IMG/VR virus record: IMGVR_UViG_3300029319_000036
Location: 1 to 35,048 of that record
Reading direction: 5' to 3' (one strand)
DNA length: 35,048 bases
Source of the DNA: a virus
Numbering within the stretch: position 1 is the first letter of the stretch; each line of letters begins with the position of its first letter. The notes beneath the pieces were generated by a model, which saw nothing but the letters and a program-made list of their open reading frames with translations, did no database searches and was not told the origin of the DNA. This document shows, one piece after another, positions 120-35,048 of the stretch. The translations under genes were made by a program, and so were the position numbers.

Positions 120-133
120 AATTAATCATGTTG
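116..133 (-). repeat. Repeated stop-start junction, copy 1
   Basis: The minus strand reads CAACATGATTAATTATGG: codons for Q-H-D, stop TAA, then TT and the next ATG. The same junction recurs, with small changes, at 472-489, 1947-1962, 3240-3256 and 3530-3546. Confidence 0.7.
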
Positions 134-475
134 ATTTTTAAAACTATATTCTCCCATAACTACACCACCTTTTTTATATGTAGTTTCTTTTAATTTTTTA
201 AGACCAAGAAAACCCCTTTTTCTAATTAATTTAGATGGTGTTCTATTACTTAAATAATTTTTATATACTTCTAAAGCTCTATTTCTATAATCACTGTCGC
301 TTTCACCTGGAATATTTTTAATTACAGGAGGTGATATGTCAGGTCCTATTAGTATATCTTTAGAAGTTGAACCTATTTTTTTTCTTTTTTGTTTTATAAC
401 TCTTCCATCAGGACCATAAAAATTAACAGTCTTGTAGCCTCTTTCTTTAAATTTTTCTTTTTTTTTATTTGGCAT
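122..475 (-). CDS. Small basic protein with GG...NQHD tail
   Basis: A 117-aa Lys/Arg-rich protein. Near the N-terminus is a FYGPDGRVIKQKRKK segment, comparable with KFNPDGTLKKTVRKK in the 95-aa protein (3245-3532) and with INPDTGKVEKH in the 49-aa protein (33456-33605). The C-terminus reads KKGGVVMGEYSFKNQHD, almost parallel to the RGGIIMGESRFRNQYD tail of the upstream 156-aa protein. These two are therefore probably distant paralogues. No signal peptide or membrane segment is visible. The gene sits between the lysis genes and the left edge, joined to both neighbours by TAATTATG junctions. The function is unknown. The shared tail suggests the family uses it as a common recognition or assembly element, which is inference. 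Confidence 0.75.
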   Translation of the reverse strand: MPNKKKEKFKERGYKTVNFYGPDGRVIKQKRKKIGSTSKDILIGPDISPPVIKNIPGESDSDYRNRALEVYKNYLSNRTPSKLIRKRGFLGLKKLKETTYKKGGVVMGEYSFKNQHD

Positions 476-489
476 AATTAATCGTATTG
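472..489 (-). repeat. Repeated stop-start junction, copy 2
   Basis: The minus strand reads CAATACGATTAATTATGC: Q-Y-D, TAA, TT, ATG. It differs from copy 1 at only a few positions although the flanking proteins differ. Confidence 0.7.
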
Positions 490-948
490 ATTTCTAAAAC
501 GACTTTCTCCCATTATTATACCGCCTCTTTTTGCTATTTTTGGTTTTTTGTTTTTTCTTTCTTTTTCTGTTGGTATTGGTGAATCAATAAAAGGATTTGT
601 TGCTTTTAGTGTTTTTGATTTTTTACTACCAAAATCATCTGCATCACCTCTTCTTTTTCCTTCAGAAAAAACAACTCTTTTTGTGTTACTAGTGGGTGAA
701 TATCTTGTGTCTTTAAAACTTCTTGCGTCTAAATTAACATTTTTTATTTTTTTACTTTTTTTATCAAACCCTAGTGCTGTCTTTTTTTCTTTATATTTGT
801 CTTTTATGTATATTTTATCTCTCATTGAGTAAGGGTCAGGATTGGGTTTGTAAACCTCTACTGTCTTACGTTTTTTTCCCTTTTTTTTATTTTTGTAAGT
901 TACCCTAACTCTTCCTGTAAATGGATTTTTAAACGTTCTTTCTGGCAT
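478..948 (-). CDS. Small basic protein with GG...NQYD tail
   Basis: A 156-aa, very Lys/Arg-rich protein. It starts MPERTFKNPFTGRVRVTYKN and is followed by a run of basic residues (KKKGKKRKT). The middle is polar, with no predicted membrane segment. The last residues, RGGIIMGESRFRNQYD, match the 117-aa neighbour's tail in order and spacing (GG-x2-MGE-x2-F-x-NQ-aromatic/His-D). It is preceded by the 3TM holin-like gene and followed by its putative paralogue. The base composition produces long T runs on the plus strand because of the AAA/AAG codons. No enzymatic motif is recognised. Function unknown; it could be a minor virion or DNA-associated protein. Confidence 0.75.
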   Translation of the reverse strand: MPERTFKNPFTGRVRVTYKNKKKGKKRKTVEVYKPNPDPYSMRDKIYIKDKYKEKKTALGFDKKSKKIKNVNLDARSFKDTRYSPTSNTKRVVFSEGKRRGDADDFGSKKSKTLKATNPFIDSPIPTEKERKNKKPKIAKRGGIIMGESRFRNQYD

Positions 949-952
949 AAAT

Positions 953-1339
953 CTATTTTTTACTAGTTGATTTTAATTTTTCAATTGACCTTCCCCCAAA
1001 ATAACTACCCACAATAGTAATCAAAACAATTTGCAACAAATCTGTCCATTTATCTTCTACTGTGAAGTCTATTGCACCTGCATCAATAAATATTAATAAC
1101 ATAGTACAAACTAACATAAATATAAGAGTTATTGGTCTTACATTTTTGCTTAACCAAGAATCAGATGCCATATCTGCCTTCCATCTGTCTGTTACATTTC
1201 TTTGTAAATCAGCTTCAGAATTCAAAAGCATTTGCTTCATCTCATTCTTTAATCTTATTTTTTCCTCCTTTGTGGTTACAACATTATCTATAATGTTACT
1301 TGCATCACCTACTAATGATTTTAAAAGTCCTTTAAACAT
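953..1339 (-). CDS. Putative holin (GTA-type 3TM holin-like)
   Basis: A 128-aa membrane protein. The N-terminus MFKGLLKSLVGDASNIIDN is amphipathic, followed by a charged helix (about residues 22-60, KEEKIRLKNEMKQMLLNSEAD). Hydrophobic segments lie at about 68-86 (PITLIFMLVCTMLLIFI) and 102-117 (LLQIVLITIVGSYFGGRS), and the tail is basic (EKLKSTSKK). This layout, including the N-V-R-P-I-T before the first membrane helix and the G-S-Y-F-G-G-R end, resembles the holin family described for gene transfer agents and many phages (Holin_3TMs). Holins form inner-membrane lesions that let endolysin reach the cell wall. The gene lies directly downstream of the putative endolysin (1341-1949), one base apart, which supports a lysis role. 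Its stop is TAG, showing that TAG is not reassigned here. Confidence 0.65.
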   Translation of the reverse strand: MFKGLLKSLVGDASNIIDNVVTTKEEKIRLKNEMKQMLLNSEADLQRNVTDRWKADMASDSWLSKNVRPITLIFMLVCTMLLIFIDAGAIDFTVEDKWTDLLQIVLITIVGSYFGGRSIEKLKSTSKK

Positions 1340-1340
1340 A

Positions 1341-1949
1341 TTATATTTTTAAATCCTTACTGTCTAATAAAGTATAAGTGAAGCTGTTACCCCAAGTATC
1401 TCTAGCCACTCTACAAATATCCATAAACTCATGCCAATCGTCATTAGCAGCTATTACTTGACATCCAGCAGACCACTTATCTACTTTAGAAGATTTTTTA
1501 CCTCCCCATTTTGTTGCTCTGTGTATGTTTATACCAAAGAGTCCAGTTTGTGTATTATCGTCGCTTAAATCAAACTTATTGTCCTTATTAGCATCTCTAT
1601 ATACAGTTACAGGACCATTTTGTCCTAACGCTTCATATCTACCCTGATGTAATCTAATTTTATGAGAACCACGATACTGTCCTTCTTTAAGAACAGCCAC
1701 ACCTTCCTTTCTCATTATGTTCTCAACCCAATATCTTCCTGGGTCTGTAGTACAATCATAACAATAAAACTCCCACTGACCATCACATTTAAATGATAAT
1801 GTTATCTTATCATCAAACTTATTAGTAACTTCTGTGCCTGTGTCAGAGTTTCTTACACCTACTATATTAAGATTATAGTCGCCTTTTTCAAACCATCTAT
1901 AACCTTTTGACTTTACGCCTTCTTCTATTATTTCTTTAGTTAATTTCAT
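1341..1949 (-). CDS. Putative endolysin, L,D-transpeptidase-like fold
   Basis: I choose the ATG at 1947-1949 (202 aa, starting MKLTKEII), one base after the upstream stop (TAATATG). A longer frame is open for 13 more codons, but that would overlap the previous gene. The C-terminal half contains FGINIHRA with His143 and, about 20 residues later, WSAGC with Cys163. This H...(S/T)xGC arrangement is the catalytic signature of YkuD-type L,D-transpeptidase folds, which act on peptidoglycan stem peptides. The N-terminal half (KGYRWFEKGDYNLNIVG) is a conserved block I recall from other Bacteroidota phages. There is no signal peptide, so release would depend on a holin, and a holin-like gene follows immediately. 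Whether it cuts or links peptides cannot be read from the sequence. Lysis is inferred from position. Confidence 0.6.
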   Translation of the reverse strand: MKLTKEIIEEGVKSKGYRWFEKGDYNLNIVGVRNSDTGTEVTNKFDDKITLSFKCDGQWEFYCYDCTTDPGRYWVENIMRKEGVAVLKEGQYRGSHKIRLHQGRYEALGQNGPVTVYRDANKDNKFDLSDDNTQTGLFGINIHRATKWGGKKSSKVDKWSAGCQVIAANDDWHEFMDICRVARDTWGNSFTYTLLDSKDLKI

Positions 1950-1962
1950 ATTAATCATATTG
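1947..1962 (-). repeat. Repeated stop-start junction, variant copy
   Basis: The minus strand reads CAATATGATTAATATG: Q-Y-D, TAA, T, ATG. It is one base shorter in the spacer than the TAATTATG copies and leads into the endolysin-like gene rather than another basic protein. Confidence 0.6.
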
Positions 1963-2319
1963 TTGACTAAACATATCTCTATTACCACCTTTTAATTTTC
2001 CTCCTTTTTTAAATTTTTTAGGCACAACGTTTCTTAAAGAATCATAATACGCACTGTCTTTTTTTTGACTTGGATGAGTATAAAAAGATTTGTCAATTTT
2101 TTCTAAAAATGCTTTTGAAATAGAATCCTGTCTCTCTTTTTCTATCTTTTTATTTTTTATTTGTTTATCCTTATAACTTGCTAATATACCTGGAAGAAGT
2201 GGGTTTTTTCTAGGATTTAAGAATTGAGGATATTCCTTTTTCTTCTTTTTTTTGGTTGTTTCGTAATAGAGATTTTTAGCCATCTCGTTCCAACTAAGTT
2301 TTCCTTTTTTATCTGGCAT
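1951..2319 (-). CDS. Small basic protein with GG...QQYD tail
   Basis: A 122-aa Lys-rich protein that starts MPDKKGKLSWNEMAKNLYYE and contains a KKKKKK run near residue 25. A charged central part is followed by KKFKKGGKLKGGNRDMFSQQYD-type residues at the end. The two GG pairs and the final Q-Y-D place it with the other GG/QHD-tailed small proteins of this cluster, although the rest of the sequence does not align obviously. It lies between the thioredoxin-like gene and the endolysin-like gene. No signal peptide, membrane helix or catalytic motif is visible. Function unknown. Confidence 0.7.
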   Translation of the reverse strand: MPDKKGKLSWNEMAKNLYYETTKKKKKKEYPQFLNPRKNPLLPGILASYKDKQIKNKKIEKERQDSISKAFLEKIDKSFYTHPSQKKDSAYYDSLRNVVPKKFKKGGKLKGGNRDMFSQQYD

Positions 2320-2333
2320 AATATTTTTTTTAA

Positions 2334-2723
2334 TTATTGAAATTTATTTAATGTTAATGTGTCTATTGAGTGCTGTATAGTTTTTCTATCTACACTTAAT
2401 TGAAACATAATATTAGGATTAAACCTTTCTTTTTCTTCTCCGTTTTCAAATATAATAACAGTAGGAATACCTGTAACACTATATTGCTTTTGTATTTTGT
2501 TACATTTACCTATATCTACTCTATATTTAGAGCACTCTTTTAGTTTAGAAAACTCTGAAAATTCATTAGATGAATTCCAAGCAGCCCAAAACTCTATAGC
2601 AACTATATCTTTTGCTATTGTATTTTTAAAATTATCAGAGCTTACAAAACTTTGTCCAAATGTAATTCCTAGTCCAAAAAAAAACAACATCATTAATACA
2701 TATAGAATGTTAGCAATATTCAT
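2334..2723 (-). CDS. Membrane-anchored thioredoxin-fold protein lacking the active-site cysteines
   Basis: A 129-aa protein with an N-terminal hydrophobic anchor (about residues 6-23, ILYVLMMLFFFGLGITFG) and then a thioredoxin-like domain. The beta strand before the active site reads AIEFWAAWNSSNE (residues 42-54). In thioredoxins this position is FWAxWCGPC, so both redox cysteines appear to be Asn (N50, N53). The cis-proline loop is kept as GIPTVIIFENGEE (Pro87). Two other cysteines remain (C64, C74). The protein therefore looks like a periplasm-facing thioredoxin fold that cannot do classical disulfide chemistry; a structural or binding role is more likely. It sits in the lysis cluster, with a TAATATG junction to the upstream TM/coiled-coil gene. 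Confidence 0.6.
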   Translation of the reverse strand: MNIANILYVLMMLFFFGLGITFGQSFVSSDNFKNTIAKDIVAIEFWAAWNSSNEFSEFSKLKECSKYRVDIGKCNKIQKQYSVTGIPTVIIFENGEEKERFNPNIMFQLSVDRKTIQHSIDTLTLNKFQ

Positions 2724-2724
2724 A

Positions 2725-3009
2725 TTAATTCATGTTATCTAGTTTATTTCTTAAATACTTCAAGTCTTCTTTTACCTCTTTCATGTCTTCTTGTGTATCT
2801 AATATAGTTTGTCTAATCATTTGGTCTTTCATATCAAACTCCATCTTTGTTACTTCAGGGTCAGGCGGTATAGGAAGTAGCTTTGCTTCAGCTATCTCAG
2901 CTTGAAGAGTAAACCACATACCTACAAAAGCAAATATTAACACCGCTAGCCCACCTAAGGTTTTAATACTAACTTCAAACTTTGAATCTTCTGATATTTC
3001 TTTTGACAT
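2725..3009 (-). CDS. One-TM coiled-coil membrane protein (spanin-like by position)
   Basis: A 94-aa protein with a short cytoplasmic N-terminus, one membrane helix at about residues 17-37 (TLGGLAVLIFAFVGMWFTLQ), a Pro-containing linker (LLPIPPDPEV) and a charged heptad-like C-terminal helix (about 55-94, MKDQMIRQTILDTQEDMKEV onward). This N-in/C-out layout with a periplasmic coiled coil is what an inner-membrane spanin or a holin partner would look like, but no family motif is recognised. Its ATG overlaps the upstream stop as TAATG, which suggests translational coupling with the two-TM holin-like gene at 3009-3242. The lysis role is an inference from topology and neighbours. Confidence 0.5.
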   Translation of the reverse strand: MSKEISEDSKFEVSIKTLGGLAVLIFAFVGMWFTLQAEIAEAKLLPIPPDPEVTKMEFDMKDQMIRQTILDTQEDMKEVKEDLKYLRNKLDNMN

Positions 3010-3242
3010 TACTTAGGACAATTATTACATTTTTTATTTGAAAACTTTTCTACCCCACTTATACCAAAACATCCGAGTACAACCCATACAAATGAATCAT
3101 ACACAAATTTATTTATAACTAAATCAGAACCTGCGGCTCCAGTTACTAAATCTATAATCATTACTACAACCATAATAAGAAAAGCTATAAATCCTACTAT
3201 AGACTTTTCATTCCAATTGTTATCGTCTTTAAATATATTCAT
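3009..3242 (-). CDS. Small two-TM membrane protein, holin-like
   Basis: A 77-aa protein with a charged N-terminus (MNIFKDDNNWNEKS), a membrane helix at about residues 15-36 (IVGFIAFLIMVVVMIIDLVTG), a short loop, a second helix at about 47-62 (YDSFVWVVLGCFGISG), and a short basic tail ending KKCNNCPK with a C-x2-C pair. Two-helix proteins of this size next to endolysins are often class II holins. However, a different 3TM-holin-like gene lies at 953-1339, so this one may be an antiholin, a second holin, or something else. It starts after a TAATTATG-like junction from the QHD-tailed 95-aa gene and overlaps the next gene by TAATG. Confidence 0.5.
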   Translation of the reverse strand: MNIFKDDNNWNEKSIVGFIAFLIMVVVMIIDLVTGAAGSDLVINKFVYDSFVWVVLGCFGISGVEKFSNKKCNNCPK

Positions 3243-3256
3243 AATTAATCGTGTTG
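3240..3256 (-). repeat. Repeated stop-start junction, copy 3
   Basis: The minus strand reads CAACACGATTAATTATG: Q-H-D, TAA, TT, ATG. Here it leads into the two-TM membrane gene, so the junction is not tied to the identity of the downstream gene. Confidence 0.7.
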
Positions 3257-3532
3257 AATTATTCCACCATCCATAAACCTAGAGGTTCTTCTTTCGTCTA
3301 TGATATTTCTAAATCTATTAGCTATAGTTTTTCTAGAATCTCTTTTAGGTTTATCTACTACTCTTCTAAAACCTTTTTTTCTAACAGTTTTTTTAAGAGT
3401 TCCGTCAGGGTTAAATTTATATTTAAGTTTACCAAATTTACCTTTTTCTTTAATTTTTCTGTCAGTGGTTACTACTTTAGAGTCCTCACCCATAGAAGAA
3501 ACTATATTTTTATATTTTTTTCTACCTGGCAT
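3245..3532 (-). CDS. Small basic protein with GGIIQHD tail
   Basis: A 95-aa protein very rich in Lys/Arg. The central segment KYKFNPDGTLKKTVRKKGFR resembles the FYGPDGRVIKQKRKK segment of the 117-aa protein. The C-terminus is RFMDGGIIQHD, a short version of the GG...QHD tail. No membrane or signal segment is visible. It is flanked by the Met/Gly-rich 104-aa gene upstream and the two-TM gene downstream, both through the repeated junction. It looks like a nucleic-acid-binding or virion-packaged small protein, but nothing in the sequence proves this. Confidence 0.72.
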   Translation of the reverse strand: MPGRKKYKNIVSSMGEDSKVVTTDRKIKEKGKFGKLKYKFNPDGTLKKTVRKKGFRRVVDKPKRDSRKTIANRFRNIIDERRTSRFMDGGIIQHD

Positions 3533-3546
3533 AATTAGTCGTGTTG
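3530..3546 (-). repeat. Repeated stop-start junction, copy 4
   Basis: The minus strand reads CAACACGACTAATTATG: Q-H-D, TAA, TT, ATG. The Asp codon is GAC rather than GAT; the rest matches copy 3. Confidence 0.7.
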
Positions 3547-3849
3547 TTTCATCATTCCTCCACTCATCATTCCTCCGTGACCATATTCCATTTTTCCACC
3601 TCTTCCATACTCCATCATTCCTCCTTTTTTCATATATCCCATTTTGTTTCTAACCTCTTTAGGCAACTTTGCTAATCCTTTTTGATTTGGCATAACCTCT
3701 TTTAGTTTTCCACCCATGGCATATTCTTCCATAACACCACCCATTTCGTAAGAAGTTTTTACATTGTCTAATAAACTAGGAGAGTTCATTGTCATTCCTC
3801 CATGTCCCATTTTTTTCATGTAGTCTTTTTTCATTTTATAACCTGGCAT
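3535..3849 (-). CDS. Met/Gly-rich repeat protein with QHD tail
   Basis: A 104-aa protein of very unusual composition, with 19 Met and many Gly-Gly pairs. Repeats of the form GG-M/K-(M)-EY-G recur: YEMGGVMEEYAMGGK, then KKGGMMEYGRGGKMEYGHGG, then MMSGGMMKQHD at the end. A central LAKLPKEVRNKMGYM segment is more ordinary. The final QHD links it to the 95- and 117-aa proteins. From memory, small proteins with this LPxEVRNKMGYMKKGG block occur in other marine Bacteroidota phages, without known function. The Met-rich GG repeats could form flexible, hydrophobic contacts with membrane or protein, or bind metal through Met/His; both are speculation. It starts the small-protein/lysis cluster downstream of the secreted 224-aa protein. 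Confidence 0.75.
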   Translation of the reverse strand: MPGYKMKKDYMKKMGHGGMTMNSPSLLDNVKTSYEMGGVMEEYAMGGKLKEVMPNQKGLAKLPKEVRNKMGYMKKGGMMEYGRGGKMEYGHGGMMSGGMMKQHD

Positions 3850-7419: not shown

Positions 7420-10400
7420 TTACTCTTTAGCAAACGCACCTCTAACAATATTAGGGAACAATCTAGCTAATCTACCACGTGCTTTTAAATCTCCTTTATC
7501 ACCATACTTTGCATCTCTTTGATATTCTGCTCTAGTAACTAAATCTTTCATACCAAATAATAAGTTTTCACCTGTTTGTGCTGCTGGCATAGAAATCATA
7601 TATTGCCATTTGTCTATGTTTAACATAAGGTTCATATCCCAGAAAGTTCTTTTTAATTGTTTCTGTACAGCACTTTCATCATCATCTTCACTAAACCCTC
7701 CTGTAAATGCATATAAACAAACTACCGTCATCATACCAAGCACACCTCTATAAGCTCTAGCCACAGCCTCTTGTCTGTGTTTTGGAAGTTTTCTAAAGGC
7801 AGTAACAAACTTACCTCTTACATCTTTACCATCTGGGTCAAGTATAACATCTTTCATATAAGATATCATAGCAGGAGCTGTACCTATGTACCACTCTCCA
7901 CTTCTTAGTTGTTTTTCTGCAGACATTCTATCTAATATAAATGTAGGCAACCATCTCTTAAATTGTAACAAACCATTTACAATAGAATAGTGTTGTATTA
8001 ATCTTTGGTCTAATTCTGTATAACCCTGACCCTGTACCTCAAATATTTTTGATTTATATCTGTCAGCATTTTTAGATAGCTCATCAAATACTTCTTTATT
8101 AGTTTTGTTTTTCTCTACAGTGTTTTGGCCTGGTTTTACTTTTACTTGACCATTTACTATTTCAAAAGAATCAAACTCAGCATCTGTCATCATACCCGCA
8201 AACTGTGCTCTTTGTATATACTTCTCTGAACCCACCATGGCAACAAACACTAAATCTCCAAATGGGCCTCTAAATATATCTTCACTAATTTGTGCAGAAG
8301 ATTCATTTAATAAACCAAAGTATGTAGTTATCTTTCTAGTTTTATTAGCAATGTTTTTATCAAAACCTTTTTTAGTCATACCAAAAAATCTAGCTTCACC
8401 AACTCTAAATTTAGTCCAACCAGCTTGTCTAAAGGTGTTGTACTTACCTATTAATATGTTACCAACACCCGCAGTAAAGTTAAAACCTAAACCAATAAAC
8501 ATTGTCCACTTATGTAAATTTTCAAATATTTTGTCTGCCCAAATTCTTTCTCCACTAGCTGTAAATAAAGATTTTTTAGCTGTTTTTTTCAAAACATATC
8601 TTTCTAACAATAATTCTTTTACCCAAGTTCTTGCGTTTTCTCTACCTCTTAAAGATTGATAACCCATTATACCATCTATCAATGGTATCTGTTCTGTTAT
8701 ACCTTTAAATTTAAATCCTGACTGAGAATCTAAACCATGATAAAATAAATTAGTTCTAACGTAGTCTTGTAAAGCTGCGTGCATATCTATAGTGCCGCTA
8801 AACTCAGCAGAACTAGAACGTTCTTCTACATATCTATTAAAGTATTTACCCATTTCATTATCTTGCGCTTGTTCTCTAATAATAACATTGCCATCTGCAT
8901 CAGTCCCTCTTTTTAAATACCTATTAGCATCAGATATAAGTTGTTTTATTTCTGACCTTAAAGCTCTATCTTGTGCAGAGCCTAATTTAATAGAACGTTT
9001 TGTATTTTTATCTATTTGTAAAATCTTATATTCTTCAATAAAGTCACGCAAAGGTTTGGACTCTCCAGTTTTTCTGTTTACGACCACAATCTTAGACAGT
9101 TCATGTGAGTAGTTATTTAATATATAAGCAGATGTTAAATTCCTAGCAATCATCATTTCATTTCTAGACATGCTTCTGTGAGGTATATAATTTTTTCTAC
9201 CTTCTTTTAAAACCACTTCACCATCTTGTCCTATTTTTTGTGATAAATGTTTTTGAAAGGTTTCAGTCACTTGTTTATACATATTAAAATACGCCAATTC
9301 CTCTGGAGTAAAACTGTCATCTGCTACTTCTTTTAACTCTAATATTCTTTTATATTTAGTTCCAGACTGTATTTTTTTACCATTTCTTTCAATTATATTA
9401 GGAACTTCTAATTGCTTTTCAATCATTAAGTTTCCAAAAATTCTTTGGTTGTAATAATATCTAGCTACATAACTAAGTTTATATAAACCATACTTTAAGA
9501 ACCACAAGTTGCTTTTACCTTTACCAAGTTTAGACTTTAACAAGTTTTCATAAGTTTTATCCATTTTAAACTTATTGTTAACCTTATCCATTTCTATTCC
9601 ATACAACATCTCTTCTTGATTAAGAACATTAAGAAGTTCTGCTATTTCGCCTCTAATTGAATCACTTATATCAGTGCTTAACCATTTAGTAACCTTACTA
9701 ATATCACCCCCTTGTTTTTTTAATTTTATGTCTTGTTTTTCTTTTTCTAATTTATCTATTATTTCTTGAGAAAGACCGTTTTTTTCTGCATTGTTAAGTT
9801 GTGTTTGAATAACCTTTAATGCTATTTTAGCTCCTACAACTTGACCAATAGTGTTGTAAAGTCTTGTTTTAGCAGTTTTGTCAAACGTGTTTAACTCTTT
9901 CATTTGTTTAATTAAATCATCTACAGTATATGCATCAGATTCAATTTTCATGTTACCATTTTTATCAGTAGATATTAGCTTAGCCTCTAACTCAGATACT
10001 TTAACAAAGTCCTCTTTGTATTTTTTGTGCATTTCTTTGTAAGCCTCGTATTGTTTTGGTTCTAATCTAGCTTGTGCATCTTGTTCACTTTCAAAGGACT
10101 TACCTGCAGCAACTCTTAAATATTCAATCATACCTTTAAGTCCAGGCATGCTTTCTTCTGAATCTATTTGCTCTGAATAAGAATACATAGCTGTGCTACC
10201 AAAGTTACCATCTTGGTCTATAATTTGTTTACCTTTAGCTACACCCAACACCTCTGGTTGAACTTTTCTAGAATACATTACCTCGCCTGATTCGTTTTCT
10301 TCTACAACAACTTCTTCTCTAGCTTTTTCTATAAAGAAAGGACTCATTGATGTAGAAGCTATTGTTTTGTTTTCTACAAATCTTTTTACTTTTTCTAAAT

Positions 10401-13400
10401 GTTGCTTAGTTGCTACCTTTTCTAAATTTATTTTTTTACCTAATTTGTATATACCAAATCTTTTTGATTTTTTTGACTTACCCATGTAAGGTAATATAGC
10501 ATCTATACCCGTATGATTATTAAACACCAAATCATAATGAGCTAAATAATCTTGCATGTTAGGTGGTAGTTTTTCAAAAGCTTCTTGTGCTAATTCGTAG
10601 TTTTCTTTTATGTTTCTGTTTAGTTTTATTTTGTAGTTTGGTCCTACCTTTTCTATACTTAAAAATTTAAAGAACTCATACTGCGAATTGTTCAAAGAGA
10701 CTTTTGATAAATTTTCTAAAATTATATTATTAATGTCTTGAATTTTTGAATTAGCATCAGCTAGTTTTTCAAGAACCTTTACATCAGCAGACATTACGCT
10801 ACCTAAAATATTTGCAGGATTGTATTGATATAGTTCTGGACCTACCATTCTTAACAGTAATGATTTTAATTTATTAGTAGAGGCTTCTGATGTGGCTATA
10901 GATTTAAACTCTGATTGGTGAACAGGGTCTAGCTTAGTTAAATCATTTATATATTCAGTTAGTTTAGTATAGTTTTCTTGTAACACAGGTGAAGTAAACT
11001 GTCCATTTTTATATAAACCAGACGCATCAAATATTGCAGAGCCTTTTGTTCCAGATATATGTTTTATTAACTTATCTATTTTAGCCTTTAACTCTCTAGC
11101 GCCGTGTATGTTTTCAGGCATTTTACTGTCCAAATTATTTAACGTGCTAATAGTTCCCAAGAAAGAAGTTCCTTGACCAAAATAATTCTGCTCAGCACCT
11201 TGCTTTACATCATAGATTTCATTTAATAAAGTTAATACTTCAGCATTTTGATTAACAAAGCTATCATTTATTTGTATATCATACGCATCTAAAGATGTAA
11301 CATTTAATTCTTGTGAAGCTTGTTCTATAGCTGTTTGAATATTGTCTGCTAGTCTGCCTTCTAAATTAGACATTATTTCTGAAACCCTTTTTGTAGCAGG
11401 GTGATTAAGTATAGCCATAATATTATTGAACTCTACGTTTCTTAATACAAGTTGTTGTATAATATTAAACGTATTAATATTCATATTCATCTGGTTAGCT
11501 TTACCTTTACTTGCATTATCTAAAAAGATATTTAATATATAAGCTACATTTTTAAATGCACTACCACCATCCTCAAAGCTTCTTTGTATTTCATTATTAT
11601 TAATAGTGCTTTGTAGTGGGTGTCCTAACACTTTAAAGTTACTTAATGTCTTTTGTGTAGTGTTTAACACAGCTGCAATACCTATCATACCAGCTCCTAA
11701 TACATTTGATTTGTATATATCGTTATTACCTAGTATAGATAAATCATTTTTATTATCATTGACTGGGGTTATTCCTTTTGGGAATTTACTTATAGCTTCT
11801 TCTACAGCAGATTCAAAGTTCATATCAGCCTCCATATATGCTTGATACTCTTTCTTGCTTAACATATCTATAACTGAATTAAAAGCTTCGTTAAATTCTT
11901 CTTGAGCTTTGTTTTTTGTTTCTTTAAATTCACCCACAACATGCAATGAATCACCGTCCATATCAGAACCTATCTTGTGTGAAAGTTCTGCTGGAATCAT
12001 AACCATAGAACCTGAATTAGACACAGTGCCTTTTACTCTACCTATTACAGCATCTCCTAGTTTAGAGAAAGGAACCCTTTGTAGTATAATAATATCTCCT
12101 TCTTGATAACCCAAAGATTCGTCTACAATAACCTCTGCATATTCTTTTATGTTACCATCTTCTTTTACATAACCTTTTAGTCCTGGAGATTCAGATATCT
12201 TATCTTTAGATATATTCTCTGTGTCTATAGCAAAGTCTGTAGATTGATGTAGTAGTCCACCTGGAGCACGCAGCTTCATAGATTTTTGGAACTGCGATTT
12301 AAGGGTTTTATTAATTACCTCTATAGTGTTTGCATCTATACTTCCGCTTCTTACTTGCTCTATTACTGCCTCACCAAATATCTTTGGGTCCATAACATTA
12401 GCGACAGCTTCCCTAAAGTCTTTATTGTCAGGTCTAAACTTACTTAGCTTATTTTCATTTAAAGAGTTTCTAGCATTCATTAGCTTTTTAACTACACCTA
12501 CAGCTTCTTTACTATTTTGTGGTAAAGAAAGTAGCATGGCTATAAACTGTTTTCCAAATATAGCATCACTTGAAGATTTATCTAGTTCCGTTTGTAAAAA
12601 GAAATTATTACCATCTAAGCCAGTCAATCCATTTTCTCTGTCTACAAAAAAGTCATCTTGCATTTCGTTCAGCTTCTTTCCCTCATTTTTTAAAAGCTCT
12701 TGTAATTCATCTACACTTACTAAAGACTCTGTCATTTCATTACTTTGAACTTTAATAGCTGAATTAAACATAATAATAGGAACTACGCCTTGTTTTTTTC
12801 TTAACCTTAATGCTTGAGCTAGTTCTGCAAATTTAGGATGTTGAGCAATTAAATTATCTGACAATACAAATACATTAGTTTTTCCATAGAAAGGAAGCCT
12901 TTTACCAAATTTGTTTTCAAATTGTTTGTTGTCAAAGTTTTGTCCATTATATACAAACTTATAATGATTACCTGGCTGTCTTACTCCACCAAATAAACTT
13001 TTAATATCTTTTCCATCTTCAGGTAAAATAAATGATGTAGCATCCGTTCTATTAACTTCATCATATTGTTTCTTTTTTTTAGCTGAAAGTTTGTTATATT
13101 GTTCTTCGAATATAATATCAGACTCATCTTCTTTGTTTAAATAAAACACAGAATCTTTAATCATAATAGGTTCTATCCTTCCACCCATCTTTATACCTGA
13201 TGCAATAGGCCCAGCTGACCTTTTAATATAATCTCTACCATTTTTAAAGTATTTAGCAGGACCTAATAATAAATCTTTGGCATGCATTTTGTTTATAGCA
13301 TAGTTTAGGGCTACTTGTTCTAATATATTAGGACTTACTTCAATATTGTTATTATTAACAAAAGTTTCTAAATCTTTAGTTAACTGATTTATAAAGTTTT

Positions 13401-16400
13401 GGTCTCCTGATAAATAAATATCTCCATTTAAAAATGTTACTGGACTGCCTTCAAACTTCTTTATTTCTTTACGAGCTTCTTCTAAAGTTAAAAGCTTAGT
13501 GTTTTTAATGTGAACTTCGTTTTTCTTGTCAGAAAATACTGTTACACTTTGACTATAAGTATCTGTTCCTGATTCTATAGCATCTACTATTAATCCTATT
13601 TGAGCTGAAGTATATACTTTTGCTGGAGCTTTACCCCTAGCAAATCCATCTTTTTCTTGTTGATACCCCATTACTTCTACTATCTCAGGGAGCGTATTGT
13701 TTTTTATAGCATTTTCTATATACAAGTTGCCCTCAAACATTTCTAACAGATTCTTTTTACCTTCTTCTGTTTTCATTTCTTGATTAATATAACCTATCAA
13801 GTTATCAGTAAAATTCATTTTAGCTGTTACATTAATCTTTTCATTGTTAGGCATGAGCATCATAGAGTCAAACTCTTTTAACTCTTGTGTTTCTATAGCT
13901 TTTTCTAATATATTATTTAGAGTGCTCTGTGTAAAAGATTTAGTTGTAGGATATACATTTTTAAAATCTAAAGAACCGTCTCTATTAATAACCATTCTAG
14001 CTGGTGTAGTTGTTTTTTTATTTATATATCTTAAATAGTTATTATTGTTAATAGAAAAATTCATTAAAGATTTAAAGTTTTCTTTAAAGTTAGGGTCTAG
14101 TTTACCTTCTTGTATAGCTAATTGTAAGTCAGTTCTTTCTGCAAACTTTTTAACAACCCCTTCAACATGTGCTCGGTCCTTTTTACCTTTTCTTGCATCT
14201 TGCGCAAACTTACCTTTAGAGCCTTCTTTACTTTGAAACTCTATTCTAGCTAAATCTTGAATCATTTTAAAAGAAGCTGACTCTTCTACGTTTTTAAACT
14301 TAACAAACTCTTCAACTACAGCATCATCTATAGCTTCAGGACTACTATAAAGTTCGTTATTGTTTTTAAATAAGTTTTCGTAAACAAACTCTTTTGCTAT
14401 TTTTGTTTTTTGCTCATCAGACAAAGAGCCATCTATCATTTTTTTATGAACAGACATTAAATTAGAAACTAAGTTAAGTCTAGAAACCATGCTATCTGTA
14501 AAGCCTTCATCAGTTTGTTTATTGTCTTTTACTTTAAATGAATTTATAAAAGACTCTCTAGCTCTTTTTTTAACAATATTGTTTTCTATTTTAGTAGACT
14601 TTTTTATTTGATACTTTCCGTTTACAAAAGATATAGTATGAAAATCTATTTGCTTAAAACTAGATAGTTCTTGATATATATGTTCTATAGGATTGCCCTG
14701 CATGGTATTATCGCCTTTATAAACTTCTTTCATATAATTCATAAAGTTTGCTAACAACTGATTTTTAGATGTAAATGTTTCTCCTTCTTTTAGTACCTCT
14801 AGCATAGTCTCATGCCTTTCTACATACTGCTCCTTTGTTAACATAACACCGTCATCATCTTTTACAGAGTTATATAGAACTTGTCTTAAGTGTCTTAGGT
14901 TTATATCTACACCACCTATGGATATTTGTTTTTTTACAAAGTCTGACATAAACTCACCCATACGCCCTTCACCATTTCTAGTTTCTAAAAATGCTTCAAC
15001 ATAGTTTTCATCATTTTCTGTAAAGCTTTCAAACTCTGAATCCATTTTTACAATAGGAGATGTTCTATAAGATTGGAACTCTTCATTAACTAATTCAAAG
15101 AAATCTTTTCTAGGCTTACCATTATTATCAAATAAATAGTTAGAAACTTCTTCTCCATACTGCTGAACGTTTTCCTGCATTTGTTCAGAGTTTTGTGTTA
15201 TAAGATTTTGTAAGGCCTGTATATACTTTGCTGTAGGCATACCTTTTCTTTTACCTGTAGGGTTGAAGCTGTCTTTAGCCTCTCTGGTTTCTTTAAATGC
15301 CTCTGAATATATTAAGTTATTTATCTCTGTTTTAATAGCATTTTTTGCAGTCTGTCTAGTGTTCATAATATAACGACTCTGCATTTTGTTTCCATAGCCC
15401 TTTTGTCTTCTAACTCTTTTAGTAAAAGACTTAACCTTTTTCATATCAATATCTACTTTACCTACAGCATCTTTTAGCTCTGTAACTAAACCTTCTATAT
15501 TTGCAGCCTCTAATATTTGTTTAGAGTCTTGTCTTGTAAACACACTAGATACATAAGAAAAGAATCCATCAATCTTTCTTTTTGCAGTAGGAGAATCCTG
15601 TGTTGTAAACGCTTTTTTAATCTGCGAATCACTCAAAGGGGCTTCTAAAACTTTTGCCACAGCTTCTTCCAAAACGAATCTTTGTTCTGGTGCACGTAGT
15701 TTTCTATATCCTAACTTAGAAAGCTTGCCTCTTTGTGATGCTAAATAACCATCTACAGACTTGTCTGCTTTTTTAGTTTTTTTTCTCCACTCTAAATATC
15801 CCTGTATTTCTTGTTGATTTATTATGTTAGACAATCTATACTTTACATTGTCTTTTTCAAATATTAACTGGTCATAGTAATTTCGTTGAGCTTCTTTATA
15901 AAAATTACTCTTTAAAACTATTTTTTTTAGAGCTGTCATTGGTTTACTGGTCCAATGTACAGACATGTATATATGTGAAAACTCATGCTTTAAAGTTTCT
16001 CTAGTAGCGGTGTTTAAGTCTAAATAGACAGATAGGCCCATGGCTACACCATTTAATCTAACATTATCAAATGATTGATTTATCTCTTTACTAAATCTAG
16101 TATTAGAAAAGTCACCAATAACTATATTAACATTTTTCTTTCTAAACTTTTCTGTTAAAGCTTTTTCTAAAGCAAAGAATCTTTTGCCTTTTTTCATTTC
16201 AATCTTCACATCATCCATTTGCCCTGTCTCTATCTCTTGCTGGCCTTCTTTAGAAAGAGTAAACTTTAGATTTGAATCTAATATAGACCTTACCTCTTTT
16301 ACTGTTTTTTTAGCATTTTCTTTAGACAAGCCTTGTGCTATATATTTTTGTTCTAATAGTCTGAATATTTTTCTTTGATTAGATTGTTTAGACTTAGTAG

Positions 16401-18681
16401 TTTGATTCTCTACAACACGCTTTCTTAATTTTTCTATTTCAGATTTTATTTTTTCTACTTCTTCTTTTTTCTCTTGTTTAACTTCTTGTTCTGTAATCTG
16501 AGTAGGAGATTCTTGCTCTTGTTTTTCTTTTTGTTCTGCTAGCCTTTGTTTTATTATATCTTTTCTTTCTTCTTGTTGTTTTTTAGCAAGTATTCTAGAT
16601 TCATCATAAAGATTATCCATAGATTGTTGATAACCTTTGCTAGTTTCTTCAAGTATTTCTATTGTTTGTTTTTCTTCTGCGGCTATATCTTCTAAGTTTT
16701 GCTTTCTTACCCTATCACTCATCTTAGTGTTAGCCTCTACCTTTTCTCTTTGTGCTTGATAATAATCTTTGTTTTGTTGTATTATCTCATCATTTTTAGA
16801 TTGATAATAAGCTAGGTAAGCCATTTCTTTTTTAGCCTCAAAAGTCAATCTACTCATACCCACATTATCATACTTATTGAAAGCCTCTTGTATCTCATTC
16901 ATCTTTTGCTTAAAGCTATCGCCTTCTTCTTGTGTGAGCTTTTGTTCTTTTACCAGCCTGTCTATGTGCATATTGCCTAATTCTATCTCTCCTGCTGCTA
17001 CAATACCTGCTAAAAATCTTTCTCTTATTTCTTCTACCTTTTGTGCTACAGCCTCTGCTTTTGTAAATTGGTCTTTTGAATAACCCTTTTCATTTATTTC
17101 TTTAGTGGCTTGAGCAAATAATAAATTTTCATCATACTCTTCAGAAAATCCAGTTCGTTTAATTTTATTATCTATTATTCTAGACCTTTCAGCGATAGAG
17201 TCTATTGTAGATATAGCCATCTCTCTTACACCCTGATTAACAATACCAGCACCCGCTCCCAATATACCCAAGCTAAAAGCTACTACTCTTGTTTCTGCTA
17301 CAGCAGGGTCATTGAAATATTCAAAAAAACCTGTATCAAATTCTTCGCCTAAAACCTCTGCAGTATTTTTCTTTGTAGACCAATCTTGATGAACCTCCTG
17401 AAACTGTTCTAGTATACCTTCACTTACAGCAACACCAGAGCCTAAAGCAAATCTTGCAATAGCAGTCTTAAAATTAATACCACTATTTAACTTTACAGCA
17501 GCGCCTATACCTTTTAAACCTTTAGTTAATATATTGTATTGTAAGGCATCAATAGCCATCCATTTCAAGTTATCTTCAAAAACTCCATAAGCAGCAGAAG
17601 CGGCTTGGTCTATTGTTCCACCTTTTTCTAACACCTGTCTATGTGCCTCACCTGCAATCATTGCTCCTTCTAGCATGTTAGCTCCAGCACCACCACCAAT
17701 GAAACCTGCTATATCTTTTCCTTTTATTACTGTGTTTGGTAGTTTTCCCATTGCCTTACTTCCCAATCCTGTTCCTATACTTTTTAATAAAGAAGGTCCT
17801 TTAAAAGCAACTTTATCTGCAACACCAATAGCCTTAGCTCCTTTAACTGCTAATTTACCTACAGCGGCACCACCAACCATAAAAGTTAATAAATTAGGTA
17901 TTTGTTGAGCCACCTTTGTATACCAAAACTTTGGGTTTGCCATTTGGGCAAAAGATATTTTTAAGTTACCATTTTCATCTAATCTAGTAAACTGACCATC
18001 AATACCACTCATATTAATATTATCGTCTACAGATTCTAAAGCATCACCTACTGCTCTAAAAGCTTCTGCTACATTAAAACTTGTATCAGCTCCCACTACA
18101 TTATTTAAATAATTTAAATTTTGTGCATTTAGATTAACATCTTCATTAGCAAGTTCTGGAGAGGCTTGATTTGTTACACTATCTGTTCCACTTAACCAAT
18201 CCATTGTATCAGCAAAACTATTAAAGACTTGACCTACACCCGCTGTAAAACTTCTTAAGAACTCTCCTCCAGCTGTATAATCTACATAATTAATATCACT
18301 ATTAAAGGCTGCTGTTTTAGCTCCTTCAGACGCTTCCTGTGGCAAGTCCATAAAAGGCAAGCCAGTTTTTCTTTCTTCCATGTAATAATCCATAGCAGGA
18401 GTTACAACATCATCATATGTTGCTATAGTAGAGCCAGTAGTATCAAATTGGTCTTGATTATTTTCTAATATAGGACTATACACAAACCCATATCTATTAT
18501 CATCTTGAGTTGATGTTTGAGTTGGGGGTTCGGCTATATTTTGTTGTGGTATTGTGTTAACAGAAACTTCAGGAGATTCTTCTATTTTAGGTACTCCCTG
18601 GTCATAAAGATTTGCTCCTTCCTCTGGTGTTTGTACTCCACGTGCTTTTGACTCGTCTAAAATTCTTTTTAAAACAGACAT
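7420..18681 (-). CDS. Giant virion protein: zincin protease plus double-psi beta-barrel RNA polymerase
   Basis: A single 3753-aa frame. Order of parts: a polar N-terminus; Gly/Ala-rich hydrophobic helices at about 260-480; a charged coiled coil at about 680-760 (KQQEERKDIIKQRLAEQKEK); a zincin-like site LKHEFSHIYM with H899, E900, H903, and candidate third ligands H909 or E1005/E1006; then an RNA polymerase region. The polymerase evidence is LQRVPFSKLG (R2202) followed 38 residues later by SDMDGDSLHVV (D2240, D2242, D2244). This reproduces the bacterial beta' pattern NRAPTLHRLG...NADFDGDQMAVH, where the gap is 35. A KMGGR motif at 1831-1835 could be the beta-like lysine site. About 1400 further residues and a hydrophobic segment at about 3644-3662 follow. 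In crAss-like phages such virion-packaged polymerases are injected and transcribe early genes; I infer the same here. The protease may release or process parts of the protein. Confidence 0.75.
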   Translation of the reverse strand: MSVLKRILDESKARGVQTPEEGANLYDQGVPKIEESPEVSVNTIPQQNIAEPPTQTSTQDDNRYGFVYSPILENNQDQFDTTGSTIATYDDVVTPAMDYYMEERKTGLPFMDLPQEASEGAKTAAFNSDINYVDYTAGGEFLRSFTAGVGQVFNSFADTMDWLSGTDSVTNQASPELANEDVNLNAQNLNYLNNVVGADTSFNVAEAFRAVGDALESVDDNINMSGIDGQFTRLDENGNLKISFAQMANPKFWYTKVAQQIPNLLTFMVGGAAVGKLAVKGAKAIGVADKVAFKGPSLLKSIGTGLGSKAMGKLPNTVIKGKDIAGFIGGGAGANMLEGAMIAGEAHRQVLEKGGTIDQAASAAYGVFEDNLKWMAIDALQYNILTKGLKGIGAAVKLNSGINFKTAIARFALGSGVAVSEGILEQFQEVHQDWSTKKNTAEVLGEEFDTGFFEYFNDPAVAETRVVAFSLGILGAGAGIVNQGVREMAISTIDSIAERSRIIDNKIKRTGFSEEYDENLLFAQATKEINEKGYSKDQFTKAEAVAQKVEEIRERFLAGIVAAGEIELGNMHIDRLVKEQKLTQEEGDSFKQKMNEIQEAFNKYDNVGMSRLTFEAKKEMAYLAYYQSKNDEIIQQNKDYYQAQREKVEANTKMSDRVRKQNLEDIAAEEKQTIEILEETSKGYQQSMDNLYDESRILAKKQQEERKDIIKQRLAEQKEKQEQESPTQITEQEVKQEKKEEVEKIKSEIEKLRKRVVENQTTKSKQSNQRKIFRLLEQKYIAQGLSKENAKKTVKEVRSILDSNLKFTLSKEGQQEIETGQMDDVKIEMKKGKRFFALEKALTEKFRKKNVNIVIGDFSNTRFSKEINQSFDNVRLNGVAMGLSVYLDLNTATRETLKHEFSHIYMSVHWTSKPMTALKKIVLKSNFYKEAQRNYYDQLIFEKDNVKYRLSNIINQQEIQGYLEWRKKTKKADKSVDGYLASQRGKLSKLGYRKLRAPEQRFVLEEAVAKVLEAPLSDSQIKKAFTTQDSPTAKRKIDGFFSYVSSVFTRQDSKQILEAANIEGLVTELKDAVGKVDIDMKKVKSFTKRVRRQKGYGNKMQSRYIMNTRQTAKNAIKTEINNLIYSEAFKETREAKDSFNPTGKRKGMPTAKYIQALQNLITQNSEQMQENVQQYGEEVSNYLFDNNGKPRKDFFELVNEEFQSYRTSPIVKMDSEFESFTENDENYVEAFLETRNGEGRMGEFMSDFVKKQISIGGVDINLRHLRQVLYNSVKDDDGVMLTKEQYVERHETMLEVLKEGETFTSKNQLLANFMNYMKEVYKGDNTMQGNPIEHIYQELSSFKQIDFHTISFVNGKYQIKKSTKIENNIVKKRARESFINSFKVKDNKQTDEGFTDSMVSRLNLVSNLMSVHKKMIDGSLSDEQKTKIAKEFVYENLFKNNNELYSSPEAIDDAVVEEFVKFKNVEESASFKMIQDLARIEFQSKEGSKGKFAQDARKGKKDRAHVEGVVKKFAERTDLQLAIQEGKLDPNFKENFKSLMNFSINNNNYLRYINKKTTTPARMVINRDGSLDFKNVYPTTKSFTQSTLNNILEKAIETQELKEFDSMMLMPNNEKINVTAKMNFTDNLIGYINQEMKTEEGKKNLLEMFEGNLYIENAIKNNTLPEIVEVMGYQQEKDGFARGKAPAKVYTSAQIGLIVDAIESGTDTYSQSVTVFSDKKNEVHIKNTKLLTLEEARKEIKKFEGSPVTFLNGDIYLSGDQNFINQLTKDLETFVNNNNIEVSPNILEQVALNYAINKMHAKDLLLGPAKYFKNGRDYIKRSAGPIASGIKMGGRIEPIMIKDSVFYLNKEDESDIIFEEQYNKLSAKKKKQYDEVNRTDATSFILPEDGKDIKSLFGGVRQPGNHYKFVYNGQNFDNKQFENKFGKRLPFYGKTNVFVLSDNLIAQHPKFAELAQALRLRKKQGVVPIIMFNSAIKVQSNEMTESLVSVDELQELLKNEGKKLNEMQDDFFVDRENGLTGLDGNNFFLQTELDKSSSDAIFGKQFIAMLLSLPQNSKEAVGVVKKLMNARNSLNENKLSKFRPDNKDFREAVANVMDPKIFGEAVIEQVRSGSIDANTIEVINKTLKSQFQKSMKLRAPGGLLHQSTDFAIDTENISKDKISESPGLKGYVKEDGNIKEYAEVIVDESLGYQEGDIIILQRVPFSKLGDAVIGRVKGTVSNSGSMVMIPAELSHKIGSDMDGDSLHVVGEFKETKNKAQEEFNEAFNSVIDMLSKKEYQAYMEADMNFESAVEEAISKFPKGITPVNDNKNDLSILGNNDIYKSNVLGAGMIGIAAVLNTTQKTLSNFKVLGHPLQSTINNNEIQRSFEDGGSAFKNVAYILNIFLDNASKGKANQMNMNINTFNIIQQLVLRNVEFNNIMAILNHPATKRVSEIMSNLEGRLADNIQTAIEQASQELNVTSLDAYDIQINDSFVNQNAEVLTLLNEIYDVKQGAEQNYFGQGTSFLGTISTLNNLDSKMPENIHGARELKAKIDKLIKHISGTKGSAIFDASGLYKNGQFTSPVLQENYTKLTEYINDLTKLDPVHQSEFKSIATSEASTNKLKSLLLRMVGPELYQYNPANILGSVMSADVKVLEKLADANSKIQDINNIILENLSKVSLNNSQYEFFKFLSIEKVGPNYKIKLNRNIKENYELAQEAFEKLPPNMQDYLAHYDLVFNNHTGIDAILPYMGKSKKSKRFGIYKLGKKINLEKVATKQHLEKVKRFVENKTIASTSMSPFFIEKAREEVVVEENESGEVMYSRKVQPEVLGVAKGKQIIDQDGNFGSTAMYSYSEQIDSEESMPGLKGMIEYLRVAAGKSFESEQDAQARLEPKQYEAYKEMHKKYKEDFVKVSELEAKLISTDKNGNMKIESDAYTVDDLIKQMKELNTFDKTAKTRLYNTIGQVVGAKIALKVIQTQLNNAEKNGLSQEIIDKLEKEKQDIKLKKQGGDISKVTKWLSTDISDSIRGEIAELLNVLNQEEMLYGIEMDKVNNKFKMDKTYENLLKSKLGKGKSNLWFLKYGLYKLSYVARYYYNQRIFGNLMIEKQLEVPNIIERNGKKIQSGTKYKRILELKEVADDSFTPEELAYFNMYKQVTETFQKHLSQKIGQDGEVVLKEGRKNYIPHRSMSRNEMMIARNLTSAYILNNYSHELSKIVVVNRKTGESKPLRDFIEEYKILQIDKNTKRSIKLGSAQDRALRSEIKQLISDANRYLKRGTDADGNVIIREQAQDNEMGKYFNRYVEERSSSAEFSGTIDMHAALQDYVRTNLFYHGLDSQSGFKFKGITEQIPLIDGIMGYQSLRGRENARTWVKELLLERYVLKKTAKKSLFTASGERIWADKIFENLHKWTMFIGLGFNFTAGVGNILIGKYNTFRQAGWTKFRVGEARFFGMTKKGFDKNIANKTRKITTYFGLLNESSAQISEDIFRGPFGDLVFVAMVGSEKYIQRAQFAGMMTDAEFDSFEIVNGQVKVKPGQNTVEKNKTNKEVFDELSKNADRYKSKIFEVQGQGYTELDQRLIQHYSIVNGLLQFKRWLPTFILDRMSAEKQLRSGEWYIGTAPAMISYMKDVILDPDGKDVRGKFVTAFRKLPKHRQEAVARAYRGVLGMMTVVCLYAFTGGFSEDDDESAVQKQLKRTFWDMNLMLNIDKWQYMISMPAAQTGENLLFGMKDLVTRAEYQRDAKYGDKGDLKARGRLARLFPNIVRGAFAKE

Positions 18682-34903: not shown

Positions 34904-35048
34904 TTATGAATTAGATAATATACCACAAGACAATGGGTTTCTTAAGATAATACCAGATTCAGAAAGAATTTGACATTCAAAGAAATCATCACCATTAGCA
35001 GCCATCATCGAATTGTAATCGTAAGGGTTAACCATACCAGGTACATAT
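34904..35048 (-). CDS. C-terminus of a structural protein, possibly the major capsid protein
   Basis: The stop TAA lies at 34904-34906 and the frame stays open to the right edge (48 residues: starts YVPGMVNPYDYNSMMAANGD, ends RNPLSCGILSNS). The N-terminus is outside the window. The fragment is too short to identify. Position immediately before a strong hairpin and the small head proteins is where crAss-like and many other phages place the major capsid gene, so that is my best guess, held loosely. Confidence 0.5.
   Translation of the reverse strand, partial: YVPGMVNPYDYNSMMAANGDDFFECQILSESGIILRNPLSCGILSNS

Follow-up and report, generated by a model that had tools for sequence, protein, structure and literature searches.

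Why should several small phage proteins of unlike sequence share their last few residues, and to what partner could such an end be addressed? The question is raised by a 35,048-nucleotide stretch of viral DNA (the window: bases 1-35048 of the 62,308-base virus record IMGVR_UViG_3300029319_000036), in which a reading of the sequence alone had noted five such genes. All five open reading frames were found on the minus strand with the lengths and ends that this sequence-only reading had listed (Table 1), the ends being of one shared form, Q-[HY]-D, rather than identical as had been claimed (three QHD and two QYD). That chance is an unlikely cause was borne out by a naive, post hoc composition estimate (1e-14 for five such ends among ~31 window genes). 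The bodies without tails gave no mutual protein alignment at E<=1, a Pfam search matched no family for any of the five, and a PHROG search assigned none to a family, yielding one weak match (95-aa protein, E 0.016). In related loci the ends recurred: GGIIQHD is kept in orthologs of the 95-aa protein at 91, 79 and 62% identity, an ortholog of the 117-aa protein (locus L006) ends in GGIVMGESSFKNQYD, the counterpart of the 104-aa protein in locus L005 ends in NGGMMRQHD, and L005 and L007 carry a different body at the place of the 122-aa protein, ending in RDMFTQQYD.

Table 1. Tagged genes of the record and their annotated neighbours; positions are those of the virus record, of which the window is bases 1-35048.
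Feature	Position	Strand	pI	C-terminus	Tag codons	Database match
117-aa basic protein	122..475	-	10.1	GGVVMGEYSFKNQHD, ..NQHD	122-169	
156-aa basic protein	478..948	-	10.4	GGIIMGESRFRNQYD, ..NQYD	478-525	
Holin	953..1339	-		untagged		PHROG 3427, E 1e-28
Endolysin-type protein	1341..1949	-		untagged		PHROG 3000, E 3e-36; PHROG 33083, E 2e-15
122-aa basic protein	1951..2319	-	10.0	GGKLKGGNRDMFSQQYD, ..QQYD		
95-aa basic protein	3245..3532	-	10.8	MDGGIIQHD	3245-3268	
104-aa Met/Gly-rich basic protein	3535..3849	-	9.6	SGGMMKQHD	3535-3561	
Major capsid protein (part; continues to 36334)	34904..35048	-				
76-aa tagged protein	within 60693-62198			..GGIIQHD		
94-aa tagged protein, DUF5872	within 60693-62198			..GGIIQYD		PF19197, E 1e-12
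69-aa tagged protein	within 60693-62198			..LLEYQKD		
109-aa tagged protein, DUF6321	within 60693-62198			..DEYGQLD		PF19846, E 3e-19

The record appears to derive from a Crassvirales-like phage, as judged by a TerL and virion proteins related to those of crassviruses: i) its terminase shares 25-28% identity with crassvirus terminases along >90% of the length (E down to 1e-51); ii) a protein of 1930 aa is similar to a virion protein of crassviruses (PHROG 28748, E 7e-51); iii) stabilisation protein matches were also found. Genes for the major capsid protein, a scaffold-like protein, the portal and the terminase follow in this order at 34904-41510. The record measures 62 kb versus about 83-104 kb in most of the named relatives compared. 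A close isolate of the tagged phage group was not found in the phage collection searched, and the DUF5872 domain gave no match in that collection and none in the genome contig collection; a host among marine Flavobacteriia is a guess. Four more Q-x-D genes lie beyond the window, at 60693-62198. Since the counterparts of the two sets adjoin each other in a related locus (L238), the ends of the record probably join, so that the nine tagged genes form one cluster of ~5.5 kb.

The sequence-only reading had proposed a search of relatives for small tailed genes. Among 3172 distinct proteins from related loci (gathered with the holin at 953..1339 as bait and in some cases with a tagged protein as bait, and with genes called mechanically), Q-x-D ends were found on 140 of the 915 small basic proteins but on only two of the 2257 others (odds ratio 204, p 4e-76), namely one of 1334 other small proteins and one of 923 large ones, while the rate of Q-x-D at internal positions was 0.14% per position. 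About 30 protein clusters contained at least one tagged member. The shared C-terminal tag suspected at the outset is thus strongly supported; it is confined to small basic proteins and is commoner than first noted, being borne by many that are otherwise unrelated. Moreover, an independent scan of IMG/VR for the GGIIQHD-stop pattern in DNA returned 28 contigs. In contigs found by the GGIIQHD pattern alone, the tag was present on 36 of 128 other small basic genes versus two of the 195 remaining genes. The Q-[HY]-D genes in the 28 contigs numbered up to five per contig with differing bodies, all those listed had a pI >=8.9, and several stood directly upstream of the terminase gene.

From 104 distinct tagged bodies a consensus of [YF]-x-x-G-G-[IYTF]-[IRM]-Q-[HYL]-D-COOH was derived, in which the residues at -3 and -1 follow from how the tagged set was defined. 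The Gly-Gly, which the proposed search had also named, was confirmed as part of the tag: it was found between -16 and -4 in 94 of the 104 tagged bodies versus 53 of 889 untagged small basic proteins (56 of 66 versus 50 of 813 when the pattern-selected contigs were left aside). Position -2 is variable (H 62, Y 16, L 15, K 8, N 2, R 1), which would suit a peptide that is read while extended, its -2 side chain pointing away. No described tag of this form was found in the literature searched, which lay mostly outside subscription journals, and Q-x-D ends were absent from phi14:2, FpV4-1.1, the Flavobacterium phages and the gut crAss-like contigs examined. Phage phi14:2, for its part, is one for which virion MS/MS data exist.

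The tag is a module that comes and goes on given bodies. Two tagged proteins of the phage belong to Pfam DUF5872 and DUF6321, domains that elsewhere end without it, and their bodies are 75-97% identical with or without the tag. Among DUF5872 proteins of 74-97% identity the ends are ..GGIIQYD, ..KFLRQLD or ..KFYKQHD, while those of other phages simply finish in a Lys-rich stretch. The DUF6321 proteins of some phages stop at RKW[KN]C, while others extend beyond this position into ..GCVVPTQHD, ..FYRQLD or ..YRPQND. Bodies kept without the tail, which the sequence-only reading had held to speak against a tag, therefore do exist literally (DUF5872 and DUF6321), but only in phages whose capsid match is weak, absent or of a sister lineage; a modular tag linked to lineage is thereby favoured, not contradicted.

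This link is plain in a comparison of 38 records ranked by their major capsid protein match. The tag was present in 15 of 15 records with a close match (E<1e-225); it was lacking wherever the capsid match was weak or absent, even in several records that carry the same DUF5872 or DUF6321 bodies. At intermediate distance (E about 1e-162), genomes G021, G031 and G033 have these bodies too, but with ends of another kind, and a shared tail was not seen in G021 or G031, both fetched whole. Two nearer genomes, G003 and G005 (E 1e-182 to 1e-191), carry a YSYQDFLDL tail instead, in each case on a pair of unrelated proteins that are small and basic. Four IMG/VR contigs contained the YSYQDFLDL pattern, and a search for relatives with a 115-aa protein bearing it returned its own contig alone. 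The end of the scaffold-like protein differs as well: the Q-x-D genomes sampled have GFDPVEFMK or KFDPKAFM[ST]E, and G003 and G005 have DIDDL[DN]L[ND]LF; this switch fits co-evolution with a head protein and equally fits plain shared ancestry. Likewise, the linkage of tag and capsid is also expected from the common ancestry of all core genes.

The same body modules were found in T4-like cyanophages. There DUF6321 closes a long protein (T4-GC119) whose gene often adjoins that of the terminase; this protein also holds a CYHKV..KCRKVG module and in some cases a DUF5872-like module. One member of this family, S-SCSM1_29, is annotated as 'virion protein', and 45 proteins were identified by mass spectrometry in CsCl-purified virions of S-SCSM1 (PMC9602691). 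In AG-345-E15, a single-cell phage, a DUF5872-like module directly follows MKTFEQFTEG, which resembles in form the sequence that targets T4 internal proteins, although such an N-terminal sequence was present on only one of the nine cyanophage-type module proteins examined. Furthermore, sites resembling those of the prohead protease stand ahead of 13 of 18 modules, as against 22% for background windows (p 7e-6), a statistic that draws on only about ten related proteins.

We therefore consider the Q-x-D tail to be most likely a C-terminal address that directs cargo into the capsid (probability roughly 0.55). The cargo would be small basic proteins made late in infection, probably binding DNA or scaffold, each with a basic, flexible body joined through a Gly-Gly hinge to the terminal Q-x-D; in the assembling head a single receptor could then recognise the Asp, the Gln and the free carboxylate of this end. 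The first candidate for this receptor is a scaffold-like protein whose gene lies between those of the portal and the major capsid protein (36408-37409); it is acidic (pI 4.7), and its predicted structure is helical and includes a long helix (mean pLDDT 64). The second is the shell lumen. In the low-confidence predicted structure of a tagged DUF5872 protein (pLDDT 56) the tail is unstructured. By such a tag many different proteins might be drawn into one head, where they may neutralise the packaged DNA and/or be ejected into the host, like the internal proteins of T4. On a wider scale, each marine crAss-like capsid lineage may have its own C-terminal tag for head cargo (Q-x-D in one, YSYQDFLDL in another), with small basic genes acquired from other phages gaining the local tag and becoming cargo, a tentative extension to which we give slightly less than even odds.

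The T4 internal proteins offer the nearest parallel. They are small, basic and mutually unlike except for their targeting sequence (CTS), and related phages put other basic proteins in their place (PMC9026906). In T4 itself we read this sequence as MKTYQEFIAEA in ipII and ipIII and as MKTFKEF in ipI, and ipII and ipIII adjoin the lysozyme gene. Like the CTS of IPI, IPII and IPIII, Q-x-D is a short terminal peptide on small basic proteins with divergent bodies; unlike the CTS, which is N-terminal and cut by gp21, it is C-terminal and different in sequence. Cleavage by gp21 occurs after L/I-x-E (PMC9026906), and no cleavage site was recognised in the Q-x-D tag; a search for CTS-like N-termini in 16 genomes gave only one, on an untagged 78-aa protein (G002). 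The pattern here is that of the T4 internal proteins with a different tag at the opposite end of the protein.

A second parallel is found in encapsulins, where a short C-terminal cargo-loading peptide brings cargo into an HK97-fold shell. The Q-x-D tag is likewise a short conserved C-terminal peptide, joined by a flexible linker to non-homologous proteins, although encapsulins are cellular compartments. Crass-type heads carry a large load of cargo protein (PMC10172136); the cargoes of crAss001 (gp45, gp46 and RNA polymerase subunits) are large (60-277 kDa), while the tagged proteins here are small.

If Q-x-D is a head-cargo address, i) sequence alone would be enough to name many unannotated small proteins as probable injected effectors or DNA-condensing proteins; ii) the tag would be an unrelated, C-terminal counterpart of the T4 targeting sequence; iii) the orphan domains DUF5872 and DUF6321, common in marine phages, would be tied to virions; and iv) the tail would provide a handle for bait, fusion and mutation tests.

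Entry into the head is not needed if the tail is instead a docking peptide for another late phage machine, be it the terminase, the portal or a complex for lysis or at the membrane, with the tagged proteins as accessory factors of packaging or lysis, which we consider unlikely but worth keeping in view. The window gave the lysis version its appeal, as its tagged genes sit among holin and endolysin genes, and the interleaving described by the sequence-only reading is true there. It is not general, however: in genome G035 the tagged cluster is separated from the terminase gene by 211 bp and from the holin by 42 kb, a distance on which we rejected a lysis partner as a general reading. On the other hand, the packaging-complex version stays alive, since tagged genes often directly adjoin the terminase gene (within 1 kb in 10 of the 14 tagged genomes compared). 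Against docking of either kind, up to nine different tagged proteins per genome are many for one enzyme, and the body modules are present in a cyanophage protein annotated as virion. Among the functions first offered for the tag, virion packaging has gained support from independent evidence, whereas degradation control and a membrane or lysis role are unsupported; lysis, degradation and DNA-junction readings all fit worse than a capsid-cargo tag.

Distinctly unlikely, in our judgement, is a role of the tagged proteins as external structural or decoration proteins, with the tag binding a tail protein or the outer face of the capsid. Their location among late genes and the linkage to capsid type fit this equally, but strongly basic, Lys-rich and apparently disordered bodies better suit contact with DNA or with an acidic scaffold.

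Proteolysis control is improbable. Signals of the degron type usually combine a fixed free C-terminus with a flexible Gly-Gly linker, and the tag matches this form, so that a host protease might read it as a degron or anti-degron and time the removal or survival of basic proteins. Such a signal would not explain, however, why the tag is restricted to small basic proteins, follows the capsid lineage rather than the body type, and is switched wholesale to YSYQDFLDL in a sister lineage. Moreover, an acidic Q-x-D end is unlike that of ssrA type (..LAA, small hydrophobic), which the observed ends, Q-[HYLNKR]-D, do not match.

An origin of the repeated ends at the DNA level, by duplicated junctions or by a regulatory signal over the stop and next start (CAAYAYGAYTAATTATG), is highly improbable, even though 17 bases are common to four window junctions and the last 36 nt of the 117- and 156-aa genes are 83% identical, because across 160 genes ending in Q[HYL]D synonymous codons vary mostly at background, all three stops occur and spacing is variable. 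In these 160 genes, the Gln of the tag is encoded by 134 CAA and 26 CAG (background 0.82/0.18) and the Asp by 108 GAT and 52 GAC (background 0.76/0.24), Leu is encoded by TTA, CTT and CTA, all three stops are in use, and the position of the next ATG varies between overlap and +30. Codons thus vary freely and junctions differ, so that selection acts on the peptide, and an origin of the tail wholly from gene-junction duplication, which the sequence-only reading had named as a possible refutation, does not hold. As judged from the alignment of their ends, recent duplication of the tail is likely only in the 117- and 156-aa pair. Within the tag codons CAC and TAC are favoured over CAT and TAT, a preference that may reflect avoidance of spurious ATGs (CATGAT, TATGAT) before the next start.

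The YSYQDFLDL tag, the shared C-terminal tail of one sister lineage, appears to resemble at the sequence level the core (YQEFIAE) of the N-terminal capsid targeting sequence (CTS) of T4 internal proteins, but lies at the opposite protein terminus. Judged by their sequences, the GC119 proteins of T4-like cyanophages look like head-cargo polyproteins. They hold several small basic modules, with prohead-protease-like xxE|[AG] motifs between modules, and one carries an N-terminal CTS.

In the sister-lineage phages at L127, L150 and L154, the same bodies as in the tagged phages, DUF5872 and DUF6321, bore other extensions (GGFILPGPARI and CGSCSNWR), none of them common to different proteins. Members of the 57-73 aa family ended in QKD, QND or QRD, and in three related genomes (G008, G010 and G011) the terminase gene followed directly.

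Within the window, the 3753-aa ORF was retained across genomes carrying Q-x-D ends, in some as fragments, and genome comparison detected no counterpart in the sister-lineage genomes G003 or G005. The 453-aa protein has repeated GG motifs (GGEAVIN) before its end, and homologs do not keep this end. The thioredoxin-like protein, encoded within the lysis/tag cluster, has a hydrophobic N-terminal segment and was present in 15 of the 16 genomes compared.

Locations of the features (G, related genomes; L, relative loci or contigs)
Feature	Location	Remark
453-aa protein	window 22961-24322	end FEKGGMLRY
Thioredoxin-like protein	window 2334-2723	Pfam E 2e-8
3753-aa protein	window 7420-18681	single ORF; virion gene block
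57-73 aa family	G001:1487-1660; G008:36397-36576; G010:56705-56890; G011:33634-33855	..IGDKxFVxDGD..GG..
Differently extended DUF5872 and DUF6321 bodies	L127; L150; L154	sister-lineage phages
GC119 proteins	L267:1163-2716; L272:626-2752; L274:182-2752; L170:11146-12510	T4-like cyanophages
YSYQDFLDL tag	L016:3340-4013; L021; L233
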